The notes under the pieces were generated by a model. The model was not told where the DNA came from and did not search any database. It saw only the letters and a list, made by a program, of their open reading frames with translations. A stretch of 64,000 bases of DNA from Pseudovibrio sp. Ad37 (GTDB lineage Bacteria; Pseudomonadota; Alphaproteobacteria; Rhizobiales; Stappiaceae): contig NZ_LMCF01000012.1 of assembly GCF_001623075.1 (NCBI RefSeq), positions 1 through 64,000 on the forward strand, in the 5' to 3' direction. Positions 26,769 through 61,787 of this stretch are shown here, piece after piece. The first letter of the stretch is position 1, and every line of letters starts with the position of its first letter. The translations under genes and the position numbers were made by a program.

Positions 26769-27941
26769 CTAGCTGCTTTTTAGGATACCCAGTGGTGTCA
26801 GGTGGTTATCCCAGCTGACGCCAGCGCTCTGGCTGATAATCTGAGCCACACCATCCTCGGTTCCGCCAAAGCTGATTGCGCCGTTTCCGTCAGTAATCGC
26901 AAAGCTTTCCTCGTCCAGCGGAGCCACACCACAGCCATCTGCAACCTGGTGGAACCCGATGAAGGATCGCTGCGCCACATCCCAGTACAGGATTTTGCCG
27001 CCACGCGGGCAGGAGGCAGCTATCACATTGCCGGATCGGTTCATCTCCACGCTGCCAACATAGTTCTGCAGGCCCTTTGTAAGCTCCAGAGGCATCTCCA
27101 GCGTCGTGGCAGCCTTATCAAGCCCCAGATGCACCATCAGCGGAGGCGTTGCATCCTTCGCGCCCTGAAACTGTCCACCAACCCACACATCACCATTGCC
27201 GTCAAAGCTCATGTGGCGCAGGGAAAGCTGGTGCAAGTCAGAACCCAAGGCCTGCTTGGCAAGCAAATCACCTGTTGCGGTGTCAATGAAAGCCACATTC
27301 GGCGTCATCGTGTCCAGGTTCAGCTTCTCGCGCCCCATGTCAGGATGGGTTTCAATCCCACCATTGGCGACAACAAGCTGCGACCCATCGGGAGACATCA
27401 GCAGATCATGCGGACCAACGCCATAGCTCTCGAACTCGCCAACCTGCTTTGGCTGGTCACCGGAAACATCATAAACGCCGATAACACCGCGCACGTTTGC
27501 AAAGTCATTTTCCGGCGCGTAGGCGAGGCGACCATCAGGCGAGAACACGCCATGGCCATAGAAGTGGCGATCTTCTGGAGATGTGAAAACAACCGGCTCT
27601 CGTGCACCTGTCAGGTCTGCAAGCACCGCGAAGGTCTCAGGCCGCCGTGCAAACGAAAGTAGGCGCATAGAGTTGCGGTCAAAGGAAATGGCATGCCCGC
27701 GATCCGGCAACGCTGTCTGGAACAGCACCTCGCCATCTTCGCTAAACACAGCAAGAGCATAACTGCCCGTTGGTGTACGCAAAGCGCTGGCGAACAGTTG
27801 CAGGTCTGCGGCCTCAGTAAAAGGCAGGCCATTGGCGAAAGCCAGAGAACTGCTGGCGCTTAAAGCAACACCAGAAGCAGCAAGACCCGTTAAAAACTGC
27901 CGTCTGCTCAGAGCAAGGGGCTTAGTCGCCATCAAGCGCAT
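26769..27941 (-). CDS. DUF1513 Tat-exported beta-propeller-like protein
   Basis: 390 residues from the ATG at 27941, which has AGGAGG five bases upstream and overlaps the previous gene's end by 20 bases. The N-terminus LALSRRQFLTGLAASGVALS is a twin-arginine signal, so it is exported folded. The body has repeating strands such as HGVFSPDGRLAYA and GPHDLLMSPDGSQLVVANGG, typical of a propeller. DUF1513 genes commonly sit with imelysin and DUF1111 genes in iron-regulated operons (family knowledge). The precise role is unknown. Confidence 0.87.
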   Translation of the reverse strand: MRLMATKPLALSRRQFLTGLAASGVALSASSSLAFANGLPFTEAADLQLFASALRTPTGSYALAVFSEDGEVLFQTALPDRGHAISFDRNSMRLLSFARRPETFAVLADLTGAREPVVFTSPEDRHFYGHGVFSPDGRLAYAPENDFANVRGVIGVYDVSGDQPKQVGEFESYGVGPHDLLMSPDGSQLVVANGGIETHPDMGREKLNLDTMTPNVAFIDTATGDLLAKQALGSDLHQLSLRHMSFDGNGDVWVGGQFQGAKDATPPLMVHLGLDKAATTLEMPLELTKGLQNYVGSVEMNRSGNVIAASCPRGGKILYWDVAQRSFIGFHQVADGCGVAPLDEESFAITDGNGAISFGGTEDGVAQIISQSAGVSWDNHLTPLGILKSS

Positions 27942-29019
27942 TAAAGCCTCCTGCAAGGCCAACATAGCCAGCAAGGTCTTCTGCCATCACCACCTTGATG
28001 CCATCGATAATGGTGATGAGATAACGCAGTTGCTCGCGCACTTCTGGCTCTTTGCCAGTGTCCTGAAGTGGTTTTGGCAGGTTAGCAAGCACACGCTGCG
28101 CATTGGAAAATTCAAAGTTCAGCGAGCTTTCCACCCAGTCCTGCTCGTCTTCCAACACCTTTGCGTAGCCACCTGCATTCAAAGCACCTTGCAAACCTGC
28201 AAGGCTGGCTGAAAGGTAAGTGACAGCATTACCGCTGCGGGCAAATGGGGCCTTCTTTGGATTGGCCTTCTTCTCAGTCTTGCCAAGCACAACAAGCAGA
28301 TACTGGTCTTTGTCGACAATCAGGCCTGTGGTGATGGCATTGAACACCAGCTCCGCAGCTTCTTTGTGGGTATGTACGACACCGCCGCCTTTGGTTGGCT
28401 CCAGAAGCACCTTGGAAAAACCGTCAGGATCAGCCCATTCGGCTTCAAGTTCCAATCCGGCACCAACCAGATTGATGCTGATGCTCTCGGCATAATCGCA
28501 TAGATAAACAGCGTCCTTGCCAGAACCAAGCGTCAACGTGCCATCACTGGCGTAAGAGATGCGCTCAAGAGCAGTCAGCCCTTGCAAGGCGACGCTTTTG
28601 ACAGACAGGGAAGCGGGATCGCGAACGGTAGGGTCCTGCTTGGCAACCACCTTATTGATCTGGCGGCGAACCACACCGCGACTGTCCGGCAAAAAGGCGA
28701 GGCGCTGAGCAAGGTTGTCCTGCGCCATCGGCCCATAGCGTAAAAAGTCAACACCAGCGAGTGCAGCAACGGATTTGCTGAAGGCCTCGTTAAAGGCAGT
28801 GGTACTTTCAGTCGTGGAACTGGTGCACAAATCACCAGTCCGTTTCTCAAGATCGGTCAACGCGCTGACAAGCTGTTTGGTCGCCGGGCGAATATACTGC
28901 TCTACGCTGGAGCGCGGGAACTGAGCATAGTCAGTGGTATCTGCCGCAAAAGAGGGCGTAGAGACAACAATTGCCGAGGCAACGGCCAGGCTGAGAGTGA
29001 CAGCACGCTTAAACTGCAT
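27922..29019 (-). CDS. Imelysin-family protein (second in operon)
   Basis: 365 residues with a signal peptide ending near residue 26 (TPSFA-AD). It is a helical imelysin-like protein, expected in the periplasm. Where iron-type imelysins have GxHxxE, this protein has GLTALERISY near residue 148: the Gly and Glu remain but His is replaced by Thr. The ATG at 29019 overlaps the upstream stop (TGATG), so it is coupled to the di-haem gene. The lost histidine suggests a changed metal site or a structural role relative to the first imelysin of the operon. Confidence 0.87.
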   Translation of the reverse strand: MQFKRAVTLSLAVASAIVVSTPSFAADTTDYAQFPRSSVEQYIRPATKQLVSALTDLEKRTGDLCTSSTTESTTAFNEAFSKSVAALAGVDFLRYGPMAQDNLAQRLAFLPDSRGVVRRQINKVVAKQDPTVRDPASLSVKSVALQGLTALERISYASDGTLTLGSGKDAVYLCDYAESISINLVGAGLELEAEWADPDGFSKVLLEPTKGGGVVHTHKEAAELVFNAITTGLIVDKDQYLLVVLGKTEKKANPKKAPFARSGNAVTYLSASLAGLQGALNAGGYAKVLEDEQDWVESSLNFEFSNAQRVLANLPKPLQDTGKEPEVREQLRYLITIIDGIKVVMAEDLAGYVGLAGGFNALDGD

Positions 29020-30563
29020 CAAAGAGACTCCAGGAACCGGATCAGATTAGCTCGATCCTTAGCAGGCATTTCAACTACACGGGTTTTGGCAGCTTCTGCT
29101 TCACCGCCGTGCCACAGCACAGCTTCCAGCAGGCCACGTGCACGTCCATCGTGCAGGAAGAACCTGTGATTATTGACAGTTTCAGTCAGTCCAATACCCC
29201 AAAGCGGCGGTGTTTTCCATTCATTTCCGCTGGCAGAACCTGTTGGACGACCATCAGACAAACCTTCGCCCATATCGTGCAACAACAGGTCTGTATAAGG
29301 CCAGATCAGTTGGAACTGATGCTCCGGGTTTTCAGCCGTGCGGCTGGTGACATATTTAGGCGTATGGCAGCTTGCACAGCCTGTCTCGTAAAATACCTTT
29401 TTACCAGCAAGCACTTGGGTGTCATTCGCATCACGACGCGCTGGCACGGCAAGGTTTTGAGAATAGAACACCACAAGGTCCAGAACCGGGTCAGGCGCCT
29501 CAGAAACACCAAGATGCGCCTGCTCGCCATGGGCCTGCTCAAAGCAGGCCGTCTGGGCTTCGGTGCAGTCGCCATAATTGCGCAGGTCATACGGTGTTGA
29601 AATGCCGATATCGCCTGCAAATGCGCCGGCAGATTGAGATTGCACGGTGGCGTTCAGGGCTTTCCAACCAAAGCGGCCAACCTGCTTTGCGTCAGGGTCA
29701 GCAGGGTTTATCCAGCTCACACGGCCAGAGATGCCATCACTGTCAGCGTCATCCGGGTCTGCTTGCGAGGTGATGTCGGTTTCTGCAATCGCTTCCAGCA
29801 GGCCAAGGCCAATCATTGGCGGCGCAACACGAGCAGAAATCAGCGCATGCTCAGACATCGGTCCATAAGCTAGATTTTCAATAGTGTAGGTCGGTTTGCG
29901 TAAAGAGGCTGTCTCACCTTCAGAAAGATCAATCTTGATCTCTTCATAAGTGATCTTCATCTCACCTTCACCCGGAACACCCGGCACGCCAAAGTTCTGC
30001 AACTGGCCACCATAGGTCGGTTCGGGAAGGAGAGGCACTTCACCGCTCTCAATCAGAGCCCGCTCTTCCGGCGTGGAAGGGGCAACTGAGAGGCGCATGA
30101 AGATGGAAACTGGGCGTTCGTCATCAACCGGCGGGCGACCACGCCCTGCTTTCGGGTGACAGCTTTCGCAGGCGCGGGCGTTAAACAGAGGGCCAAGACC
30201 GTCAGAGGCGCGCGTAGAACTTGGGGTCGACACCCAGAACTTTTGGAACAGGCTCTCACCCAGACGGAAGTCCTGATGCTGCTCGAAAGGGAGGTTGGCA
30301 CTTGGGTAGGTAAAGACAGCGCGATTGAGAGGCTTCCGGGTCGTTGTTTTCCCCGCTTGCATCAACTCAAAATTTTCAGCTTTGGAAAAATCAGTCGGCG
30401 CCTTCAAAACCCGGCTGACTTTCGCTTTATCCCCGTCACTGAGATCGGTTCGCTGGTTCAGATCAACAGCAGAAGCGGCGGGAATGAGGAAGCTGGTAAA
30501 AGCGGTGGTAGTGGCTATCACTCCTGCACGACGGCGAAGTGTGGCTGGAACCATTCCTGGCAT
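29019..30563 (-). CDS. Di-haem c-type cytochrome/oxidoreductase (DUF1111)
   Basis: 514 residues with an N-terminal signal (about 1-32). Two c-type haem attachment motifs are visible, CESCH near residue 135 and CASCH near residue 395, both typical of DUF1111 'thiol oxidoreductase' proteins related to di-haem peroxidases. It should act in the periplasm in electron transfer. The gene lies between two imelysins, an arrangement known from iron-acquisition loci, where the haem protein might oxidise or reduce iron (inference). Confidence 0.88.
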   Translation of the reverse strand: MPGMVPATLRRRAGVIATTTAFTSFLIPAASAVDLNQRTDLSDGDKAKVSRVLKAPTDFSKAENFELMQAGKTTTRKPLNRAVFTYPSANLPFEQHQDFRLGESLFQKFWVSTPSSTRASDGLGPLFNARACESCHPKAGRGRPPVDDERPVSIFMRLSVAPSTPEERALIESGEVPLLPEPTYGGQLQNFGVPGVPGEGEMKITYEEIKIDLSEGETASLRKPTYTIENLAYGPMSEHALISARVAPPMIGLGLLEAIAETDITSQADPDDADSDGISGRVSWINPADPDAKQVGRFGWKALNATVQSQSAGAFAGDIGISTPYDLRNYGDCTEAQTACFEQAHGEQAHLGVSEAPDPVLDLVVFYSQNLAVPARRDANDTQVLAGKKVFYETGCASCHTPKYVTSRTAENPEHQFQLIWPYTDLLLHDMGEGLSDGRPTGSASGNEWKTPPLWGIGLTETVNNHRFFLHDGRARGLLEAVLWHGGEAEAAKTRVVEMPAKDRANLIRFLESL

Positions 30564-30655
30564 AACGGGTGCCTGTATTTACATAGGCCTTCGCAAAAAC
30601 GCTAAAACACGCAAATGAACGCACATAACAACGCAAACAAAAGGCGAGGGGGATA

Positions 30656-30685
30656 AGTCCCGCACGAGGTGTCTCGTGCGGGACT
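30656..30685 (-). terminator. Perfect hairpin between the first imelysin and DUF1111 genes
   Basis: AGTCCCGCACGAG (30656-30668) pairs with CTCGTGCGGGACT (30673-30685) across a GTGT loop. In the leftward direction no T-run follows. It probably stabilises the upstream imelysin transcript or gives partial termination. Confidence 0.65.
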
Positions 30686-30692
30686 GGATATC

Positions 30693-31961
30693 TTATTCGA
30701 ATACTGCAGAAGGGTTGTCGAGGCTGTCGGAGCCTTCGAATGCAATATTTTCCAGCTTCAGCACCTGAACAGCACGCTGAATGGAAGATGTCTGGTCAAC
30801 CAGGCTATCGATAGCAGCCTGTACCACTGCGTTACCCTCTGTGTTTCCTTCACCAATCATCTGGTCGTAGGATTCAGTGGTTTCAGCGTGGGTTTTCATG
30901 GCTGTAAAGGTGCCGAGGGAAGCATTCAGCTTGCCTTCCAGCTCAGTTGAAACAGCGGAATCTGCCTTTGCAAGCAAGTCCTTAAGGGAAGCACCCTCAA
31001 CAACAGAACCGTCAACGCGGGTGTATTTACCCTGGAATACGTTGTTGATGCCAACCACGTCGTTGTAGTGGGACATATGGGTGTTGTCAGAGAAGCAGTC
31101 ATGCTCTTCTTCAGGATCGTTCAGCATCAGGCCGAGCTTCATGCGCTCACCAGCCAGTTCACCGTAAGACAGGGAACCCATGCCGGTCAGGATGGTTGCG
31201 ATGCCTGCAGCTTCGCCTTTGTCAGCCAGCTCTTTACGTGCTGCGCCGTCGGCTTTCCATGCTGCGACCATCTCTTCCAGATCGGTGATAAGCAGCTTCG
31301 TTGCAGCCTGAAGGTAGTCAGCACGGCGCTCACAATTGCCACCGGTGCAATTTGCAGTGTCGAAATCAGAAGCAGGACGGTTGCCAGCACCTTTCCCCGT
31401 TCCGTTCAAATCTTGTCCCCACAGCAGGAATTCAATTGCGTGGTAACCGGTCGCAACGTTTGCTTCCACTTCACCAGCTTCCTGAAGCTGTTCAGCAAGC
31501 AGCGCAGGGGTGATTTCAGTGGCGTCGATTTCTTCGCCAGCAACAGTCAATTTAGTGTTTGCAATGATGTTCGCTGCGTAAAACGGGTTCTCTTCGGACT
31601 CATTGCCGTAAGCACCATCAACGTAGTCGATCAGACCCTCGTCAAGCGGCCAGGCGTTGACCTTGCCTTCCCAGTCATCAACGATCGCATTACCAAAGCG
31701 GTAAACTTCTGTCTGCTGGTATGGGTTACGAGCTGCAATCCATGCGCGGCGTGCGGCTTTCAGGTTGTCTTCAGTTGGCTCTGCGACAAGCGCGTCCACT
31801 GCACCCTGAAGGGTCTTCGCAGTTGTCAGAGAGTCTTCAAACGCTGCCTGGGCGATGTCGCCGTAGGTTGCAAGAACGTCAGAAGGAGTTGCAGCGACAG
31901 CAACAGTAGAAAGGCTGCCGAGTGCTACAGTGCCGAGCAAAGCGCCACGGATAAAGCTCAT
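30693..31961 (-). CDS. Imelysin-family iron-regulated protein (IrpA-like)
   Basis: 422 residues from ATG 31961 (AAGGGGA ribosome binding site); the longer frame adds a non-signal leader. The signal peptide ends near residue 23 (AVAA). The imelysin motif GxHxxE is intact as GYHAIEFLLWGQD near residue 170, and a conserved-looking DNTHMSHYND segment lies near 300. IrpA/ICMP proteins are periplasmic or envelope proteins linked to iron uptake. It is the first gene of the leftward operon, with a Fur-like site upstream. Confidence 0.9.
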   Translation of the reverse strand: MSFIRGALLGTVALGSLSTVAVAATPSDVLATYGDIAQAAFEDSLTTAKTLQGAVDALVAEPTEDNLKAARRAWIAARNPYQQTEVYRFGNAIVDDWEGKVNAWPLDEGLIDYVDGAYGNESEENPFYAANIIANTKLTVAGEEIDATEITPALLAEQLQEAGEVEANVATGYHAIEFLLWGQDLNGTGKGAGNRPASDFDTANCTGGNCERRADYLQAATKLLITDLEEMVAAWKADGAARKELADKGEAAGIATILTGMGSLSYGELAGERMKLGLMLNDPEEEHDCFSDNTHMSHYNDVVGINNVFQGKYTRVDGSVVEGASLKDLLAKADSAVSTELEGKLNASLGTFTAMKTHAETTESYDQMIGEGNTEGNAVVQAAIDSLVDQTSSIQRAVQVLKLENIAFEGSDSLDNPSAVFE

Positions 31962-32396
31962 TGTAATCCCCTTAAATGTGCAGTGAATTCGCCTCGCGCT
32001 GCGAGCGGAAAATCCGGGCTGCACGAATTCAGTTTGCCAAATGTTGTCATGCCCTAAAGCGTGAGAAAACTGCGGCTATTTCATATTCCTGACTATTGTT
32101 GTCAAGTTTAAAAACGTGCACTTTCAGTAGTTTAGAGTATTTCTAAATATGAGTTTCAGTTGCAACTTATTGTCATTAAAAGCTTTTCCGTACTTTTGCA
32201 GTTGCAAATCATTCGCATAAATAAATGGGATAATATTGGGAAAATACGCGAATCCCCCGCTCAACTGTTACCGTTTGTTTGGCATATCTTGACTTCGCAG
32301 CACCTATGCGCTCTTACGGAACCTTCTTCAGGTACATTGCATTTAATTGGCATCAATCAGCCAGTCTGTCTGCACCAACAACGATAAGAACAGGGT
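31962..32396. other. Divergent regulatory stretch between irpA-like and GDPD genes
   Basis: About 435 AT-rich bases without a supported gene separate two divergent operons. It contains a near-palindrome that looks like an alphaproteobacterial Fur site (32203-32217) and a smaller inverted repeat TGAC...GTCA (about 32090-32104). Promoters for both directions should be here. Confidence 0.6.
32203..32217. promoter_or_regulatory. Candidate Fur-type iron box
   Basis: TGCAAATCATTCGCA is a 15-base near-palindrome (one mismatched pair) similar in form to the TGCAAAT-n-ATTTGCA type sites bound by Fur/Mur/Irr regulators in alphaproteobacteria (recalled form). It is about 240 bases upstream of the imelysin operon. 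A second TTGCAACTTATTGTCA-like half-site lies near 32160. A Fur/Mur gene is in this window at 61362. Confidence 0.35.
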
Positions 32397-61212: not shown

Positions 61213-61361
61213 GCGACACTACGCATGTGAGATGAGGCTTTTAGCTCACGCTCAAACCGCGTTACAGTGAAACTGGTTCTTTTCTCTCACAGTTTTGAGG
61301 GCTAGGATACCAACGCAGACTGGAACTGTGGTGCCTGTGTGATTTTGAGGAATTGGGGCAA

Positions 61362-61787
61362 ATGACGGCAGAAGAAAAAATGACGCTGATTGAAATGTGT
61401 GCTCATAAGGGTATGCGGATGACAGAACAGCGCCGCGTGATTGCTGATGTAATTCAGTCTGCTGAAGACCACCCAGATGTGGAAGAGCTTTACAGAAGAG
61501 CCTCCAAGATCGATCCAAAGATCTCTATCTCAACTGTTTACCGCACAGTGAAGCTTTTCGAAGATTCCGGTATTATTGAACGTCACGATTTCCGCGATGG
61601 CCGCTCCAGATACGAAACCGTTTCTGATGAACACCACGATCACCTGATCGATTTGCGCACAGGCGACGTGATTGAGTTCCGCAGCGAAGAAATCGAAAAA
61701 ATGCAGGAAGAAGTCGCGCGTAAGCTGGGCTTCAAACTGGTTGATCATCGCCTGGAGCTCTACGGTATTCCGTTAGCCGAAAAATAG
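61362..61787 (+). CDS. fur: Fur/Mur-family metal-responsive regulator
   Basis: 141 residues from ATG 61362 (GGGG upstream). The winged helix contains RMTEQRRVIADVIQ and ISISTVYRTVKLFEDSG. HHDHLIDLRTGDVIEF is the Fur metal-binding stretch, but the usual Cys pair after HHDHLIC is absent, as in many alphaproteobacterial Fur/Mur proteins, several of which respond to manganese. It sits in the tsaB-rimI-fur-plsC-miaB order typical of the class. It may control the imelysin operon in this window (inference). Confidence 0.92.
   Translation: MTAEEKMTLIEMCAHKGMRMTEQRRVIADVIQSAEDHPDVEELYRRASKIDPKISISTVYRTVKLFEDSGIIERHDFRDGRSRYETVSDEHHDHLIDLRTGDVIEFRSEEIEKMQEEVARKLGFKLVDHRLELYGIPLAEK

Follow-up and report, generated by a model that had tools for sequence, protein, structure and literature searches.

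The four-gene operon of Pseudovibrio sp. Ad37 analyzed here is, in our judgement and with moderate confidence, the Pseudovibrio copy of a known iron-starvation operon encoding an IrpA/ICMP imelysin, a DUF1111 protein, an IPPA imelysin and a DUF1513 protein, working by the mechanism proposed below. Such operons are widespread and iron-induced. The present comparison places the constraint on the second imelysin (imelysin 2) at its C-terminus rather than in its pocket, and reveals a set of DUF1513 histidines which is kept even in a diverged paralogue. The imelysin 2 tail and the DUF1513 histidine set offer direct mutational handles on where metal is handled.

Gene arrangement and conservation of the operon

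The window, that is the whole stretch of DNA analyzed, comprised positions 1 to 64,000 of contig NZ_LMCF01000012.1 (assembly GCF_001623075.1), and the operon occupies 26,769-31,961 on its minus strand. A first-pass annotation had described a pair of imelysins with GYHAIE and GLTALE motifs in one operon with a di-haem DUF1111 protein and a Tat-exported DUF1513 protein, and both its coordinates and its motifs were exact. The features are as follows.

32131..32147, no strand assigned: Irr-box (ICE) like palindrome TTTAGAGTATTTCTAAA, 1 mismatch, 170 bp upstream of imelysin 1
30693..31961, minus strand: imelysin 1 (ICMP/IrpA-type M75), GxHxxE intact; ATG at 31961; PF09375 E 1.7e-84
31431..31448, minus strand: GYHAIE motif of imelysin 1, read from the sequence; no change at G, H or E among 83 homologues
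30656..30685, minus strand: 13-bp perfect stem-loop right behind the imelysin 1 stop; fold -27.8 kcal/mol, z -7.55
29019..30563, minus strand: di-haem DUF1111/DHOR oxidoreductase; PF06537 E 4.5e-97; two CxxCH
27922..29019, minus strand: imelysin 2 (IPPA family); PF09375 (M75) E 1.8e-24; 3pf0 profile match 1.4e-40
28564..28581, minus strand: GLTALE of imelysin 2, a GxxxxE version of the motif; His at the site in 0/87 homologues
27925..27948, minus strand: GFNALDGD C-terminal tail of imelysin 2; DGD in 87/87, also in IPPA 3pf0
26769..27932 (start approximate), minus strand: DUF1513, propeller-like, Tat-exported; PF07433 E 1.8e-101
27891..27908, minus strand: SRRQFL twin-arginine motif of DUF1513; RR kept in 85-86/87

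Transcription runs from imelysin 1 through DUF1111/DHOR and imelysin 2 to DUF1513. The DHOR, imelysin 2 and DUF1513 genes overlap head to tail, which fits translational coupling, and a gap of 129 bp holding the stem-loop separates imelysin 1 from DHOR. A genome-wide search recovered these two imelysins as the only M75 proteins of the 5.9 Mb genome. The nearest named relatives of imelysin 2 are those of P. ascidiaceicola (96% identity) and P. denitrificans (90%). The four proteins correspond to the consecutive entries COG3487-3490, whose numbers were assigned as neighbours.

Loci were sampled through imelysin 2 (60 alphaproteobacterial) and through DUF1513 (30 phylum-wide). Of the former, 55 had all four genes in the order seen here, as did 27 of the latter; several of the exceptions were loci at contig ends. 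On this recurrence the arrangement is far beyond chance. Genes flanking the sampled loci were diverse (TonB receptor, PutA, MFS, ThiC and others) and included no conserved transporter, so that no neighbour belongs to the conserved unit; nor was an inner-membrane permease found within the four-gene unit. In one relative the operon has two DUF1111 genes in succession (L185:2232-5438). The DUF1111 ORF of the P. denitrificans JCM 12308 draft genome (L064:4456-5769) is 437 aa as opposed to 514 aa, which probably reflects a frameshift or sequencing error.

Imelysin 1, the stem-loop behind it and DUF1111

Imelysin 1 carries a Sec signal peptide, as read from the sequence, and matches the ICMP-like PDB entry 7xrx (E 9e-118). 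The His and Glu of GxHxxE were kept in all 83 imelysin 1 sequences, among which His195, Glu198, His308, Glu106, Glu119 and further residues were near-universal (imelysin residue numbers count from TTG/GTG ORF starts, His308 being in GTG numbering). Matched by motif spacing rather than by structure, His308 (79/83) is the His which replaces PIBO Glu137, and as in PIBO it precedes a conserved Ser by four residues. By its M75 fold, its GxHxxE motif and this His at the PIBO Glu137 position, imelysin 1 is classed as a member of the ICMP/imelysin family.

Structure comparable to the stem-loop (z <= -2) occurred in 34 of the 57 loci whose gap was 40 nt or longer, its position recurring in many relatives while its sequence differs. 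The stem-loop lacks a T-run and was therefore not reported by a scan for consensus terminators. It is possible that the element acts as a partial terminator or as a stabiliser of the mRNA 3' end, and its recurrence suggests separate control of the imelysin 1 mRNA.

The DUF1111/DHOR protein also has a Sec signal peptide by sequence, and its two CxxCH motifs, at residues 132-136 and 396-400, were conserved in 84/85 and 85/85 homologues, respectively. Its Pfam matches were to DHOR and cytochrome c only, and a single-sequence search of the PDB gave no match.

Loss of the metal site and retention of the C-terminal tail in imelysin 2

Imelysin 2 likewise carries a Sec signal peptide as judged from its sequence. 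A single-sequence phmmer search against the PDB gave no match, and a profile search recovered 3pf0 (1.4e-40), 3n8u (1.8e-17) and 7xrx (0.012). At the motif site, the 87 second imelysins sampled across the phylum had Pro in 30, Thr in 26, Gly in 8, Ser in 7, Leu in 5, Tyr in 4 and other residues in the remainder; none had His. The first-pass annotation had asked whether the Thr is conserved among second-position imelysins; at 26/87 it is not, although it is found in 12 of the 20 sequences from the host's own family. An alternative conserved His, which that annotation had named as evidence that would count against its reading, was sought in the same 87 sequences and not found, as no column exceeded 30% His (the highest, at residue 93, had 25/87). 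The central Arg is lost as well, with Val85 at the column of IPPA Ala131/PIBO Arg302, and positions matching EfeM Site IV were unconserved. These observations support the earlier proposal that the second imelysin has lost metal-site residues, and agree with the description of IPPA as being without both EfeM metal sites, III and IV (PMC9174327). Being closest to 3pf0, with GxxxxE, a lost Arg and a position downstream of a GxHxxE imelysin in the operon, imelysin 2 can be assigned to the IPPA family.

Although imelysin 2 has diverged more than the other three proteins, its C-terminal GFNxxDGD is near-invariant, and the chain ends exactly at DGD in 85 of 87 second imelysins. The C-terminus of IPPA reads GFNSTDGD. 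The tail was absent from two weak imelysin-2-like matches outside the operon (L098, L099), which is suggestive for two cases only. In the papers searched, the tail appears to be undescribed.

Divergence of this order (about 23-30% identity outside the family), together with the lost motif, might be taken as signs of decay in a copy of imelysin 1 that no longer has a role. This is extremely improbable: across the phylum the operon retains the gene, its frames are intact, and the protein keeps an invariant tail and two conserved Cys. On this conservation we reject the decayed-duplicate reading.

Arg is the commonest residue at imelysin 2 columns 95, 104 and 107 (59, 66 and 56 of 87) and Gln147 is kept in 75/87, so the protein could be envisaged as a binding protein and not a scaffold, in which a pocket of R95, R104, R107 and Gln147 has taken the place of the acidic/His metal site and accepts an anionic ligand, for example a carboxylate iron chelate. 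Xu et al. (2011) suggested that substrate preference might have changed (PMC3143127). We consider this unlikely, as imelysin 2 is best conserved at its tail and not at the pocket, the Pseudovibrio protein itself has Leu at column 104, and no ligand has been seen or reported for IPPA. The four proteins may form a complex, as the first-pass annotation suggested, in which one imelysin would bind metal and the other would be structural.

Conserved histidines of DUF1513

In DUF1513, five His residues were invariant in 87/87 homologues: H80, H127, H175, H240 and H377, numbered from the ATG at 27932. Each belongs to a different blade and is located where a predicted inner strand begins or close by, and a sixth blade has Cys334 (kept in 68/87). 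A diverged DUF1513 paralogue located outside the operon (L207:7097-8440) has kept the five His, the Cys and R78, and has lost most other invariant residues, namely R96, P98, G191, Q254, D375 and N376. Such retention of the His in a diverged paralogue is the pattern to be expected from a functional site.

Self-similarity between blades supported the register for about five of them, one only to within one residue. AlphaFold models of imelysin 2 and DUF1513, for which the alignments took in close Pseudovibrio homologues only, reached pLDDT of 37 and 43, respectively. Foldseek searches with the weak DUF1513 model returned mostly beta-propellers, which offers soft support. Since the models are of low confidence, the His ring is argued from blade register and conservation, by which the five His probably form a ring in the centre of a propeller with seven blades. 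The His set appears undescribed in the papers searched, and DUF1513 was not found named in that literature.

DUF1513 is the likeliest location of an overlooked metal site in the operon. A more specific proposal is that DUF1513 is an unrecognised metalloprotein, its five His and the mostly conserved Cys making up a central site for a metal or metal cofactor, and that imelysin 2 serves as an adaptor by plugging its free GFNxxDGD tail into a partner. We hold this combination tentatively, as possible though short of probable. If true, the metal chemistry of the operon would centre on DUF1513 and DUF1111 and not on the imelysin pair.

Predicted regulation by iron

For the palindrome upstream of imelysin 1, the ICE consensus was taken to be TTTAGAANNNTTCTAAA. 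Among 21 loci of the host's family, which are relatives and not mutually independent, an Irr-box was present upstream of the operon in 8 at no more than one mismatch and in 11 at no more than two; shuffled sequences gave expectations of 0.005 and 0.05 loci. Nine control palindromes gave no more than one hit at up to two mismatches. Genome-wide, the ICE pattern was not enriched over a control pattern, so the case for Irr comes from conservation upstream of the operon. In some loci from beyond the family, Fur-box-like sites take its place (e.g. L113, 2 mismatches). Site conservation therefore points to predicted control by Irr in the host's family and by Fur elsewhere. The genome encodes four Fur-family proteins, and we take the Irr-like member to be the one encoded beside a fabA-like gene. 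A Fur/Mur-like regulator gene lies within the 64-kb window itself, at 61353-61787.

The iron link claimed for this periplasmic module is supported by the conserved Irr-box and by the induction of its relatives on iron limitation (PMC4324432, PMC3413700, PMC4176601). Treatment of A. salmonicida with dipyridyl induced its counterparts of VC1264 and VC1265 2.8- and 2.2-fold (PMC4324432), and VC1264, VC1265 and VC1266-7 of V. cholerae appear in an iron-regulator study (PMC7600106). R. sphaeroides irpA is iron-responsive, and its induction under oxic conditions needs OxyR. This last observation, the annotation of DUF1111 as a putative di-haem peroxidase and the lack of a permease conserved in the unit would fit an operon for periplasmic peroxide or redox protection induced by iron starvation, in which DUF1111 is the working enzyme, the others support it and uptake is not the purpose. 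We judge this quite unlikely, given that iron regulators govern the operon in several lineages and that the imelysin relatives EfeO/EfeM act in iron uptake (PMC9174327).

Proposed mechanism

The mechanism we favor is an iron-uptake module. Low iron would switch the operon on, through Irr in the host's family and Fur elsewhere according to the predicted sites. By their signals, imelysin 1, DUF1111 and imelysin 2 would be exported via Sec and DUF1513 via Tat. DUF1111, a di-haem redox enzyme by its motifs, probably oxidises or reduces iron or one of its ligands, and metal or a metal ligand would be held by imelysin 1 and/or DUF1513. Imelysin 1, with its full site of GxHxxE, His308 and acidic residues, probably presents substrate, while imelysin 2, its site lost, is probably an adaptor which docks through the invariant GFNxxDGD C-terminus. 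The five His of DUF1513, one per blade, probably hold a metal or metal cofactor. As the conserved unit has no permease, uptake would be completed by a separate one. Against this mechanism stand the absence of stabilisation of PIBO or IPPA by Zn, Fe(III) or haem (PMC3143127), the pLDDT values of the two models and the absent genome-wide enrichment of ICE.

Comparison with known systems

The EfeUOB/M transporters have the imelysin (M75) domain and the link to iron in common with the Pseudovibrio operon, but the latter is without an FTR1 permease, a cupredoxin domain and a DyP-type EfeB. DUF1111 was termed EfeB by Xu et al. (2011; PMC3143127), whereas EfeB is a DyP-family peroxidase (PMC3577903). 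Since DUF1111 matches DHOR and cytochrome c only, the operon is EfeUOB-like in theme and not a member of that group. The genome's only FTR1 gene is on another contig. At that locus (L147, C92:66000-74990), FTR1 is flanked on one side by a 1136-aa protein with matches to multihaem cytochromes and to cytochrome d1-like proteins and on the other by a protein resembling FAD amine oxidases, and an ABC ATPase is encoded upstream. The locus may serve a separate, redox-linked route of iron uptake.

The closest known counterparts are described for P. aeruginosa PA4370-PA4373, a Fur-regulated operon with two imelysins and a DUF1111 protein, the second imelysin being of the IPPA family with GxxxxE and the motif His not conserved, and V. 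cholerae VC1264/VC1266 match the two-imelysin pattern (PMC3143127). Neither the imelysin pair nor the lost motif His is therefore new, both having been published in 2011 (PMC3143127). PA4370-PA4373 and VC1264-VC1267 share with the Pseudovibrio operon the gene types and their order, GxHxxE in the first protein and GxxxxE in the third, and, as predicted for the latter operon, iron regulation. In contrast, the Pseudovibrio operon has a family-specific Irr-box and no clear Fur box, and its imelysin 1 has a plain Sec signal where ICMP has a lipoprotein signal. The IPPA of Psychrobacter arcticus, whose structure has been solved (3pf0), has Pro194 at the motif His position (PMC3143127) where Pseudovibrio imelysin 2 has Thr, and the sequences have diverged far enough for the single-sequence search to miss the match; the two proteins share both the GxxxxE form of the motif and the GFNxxDGD C-terminus.
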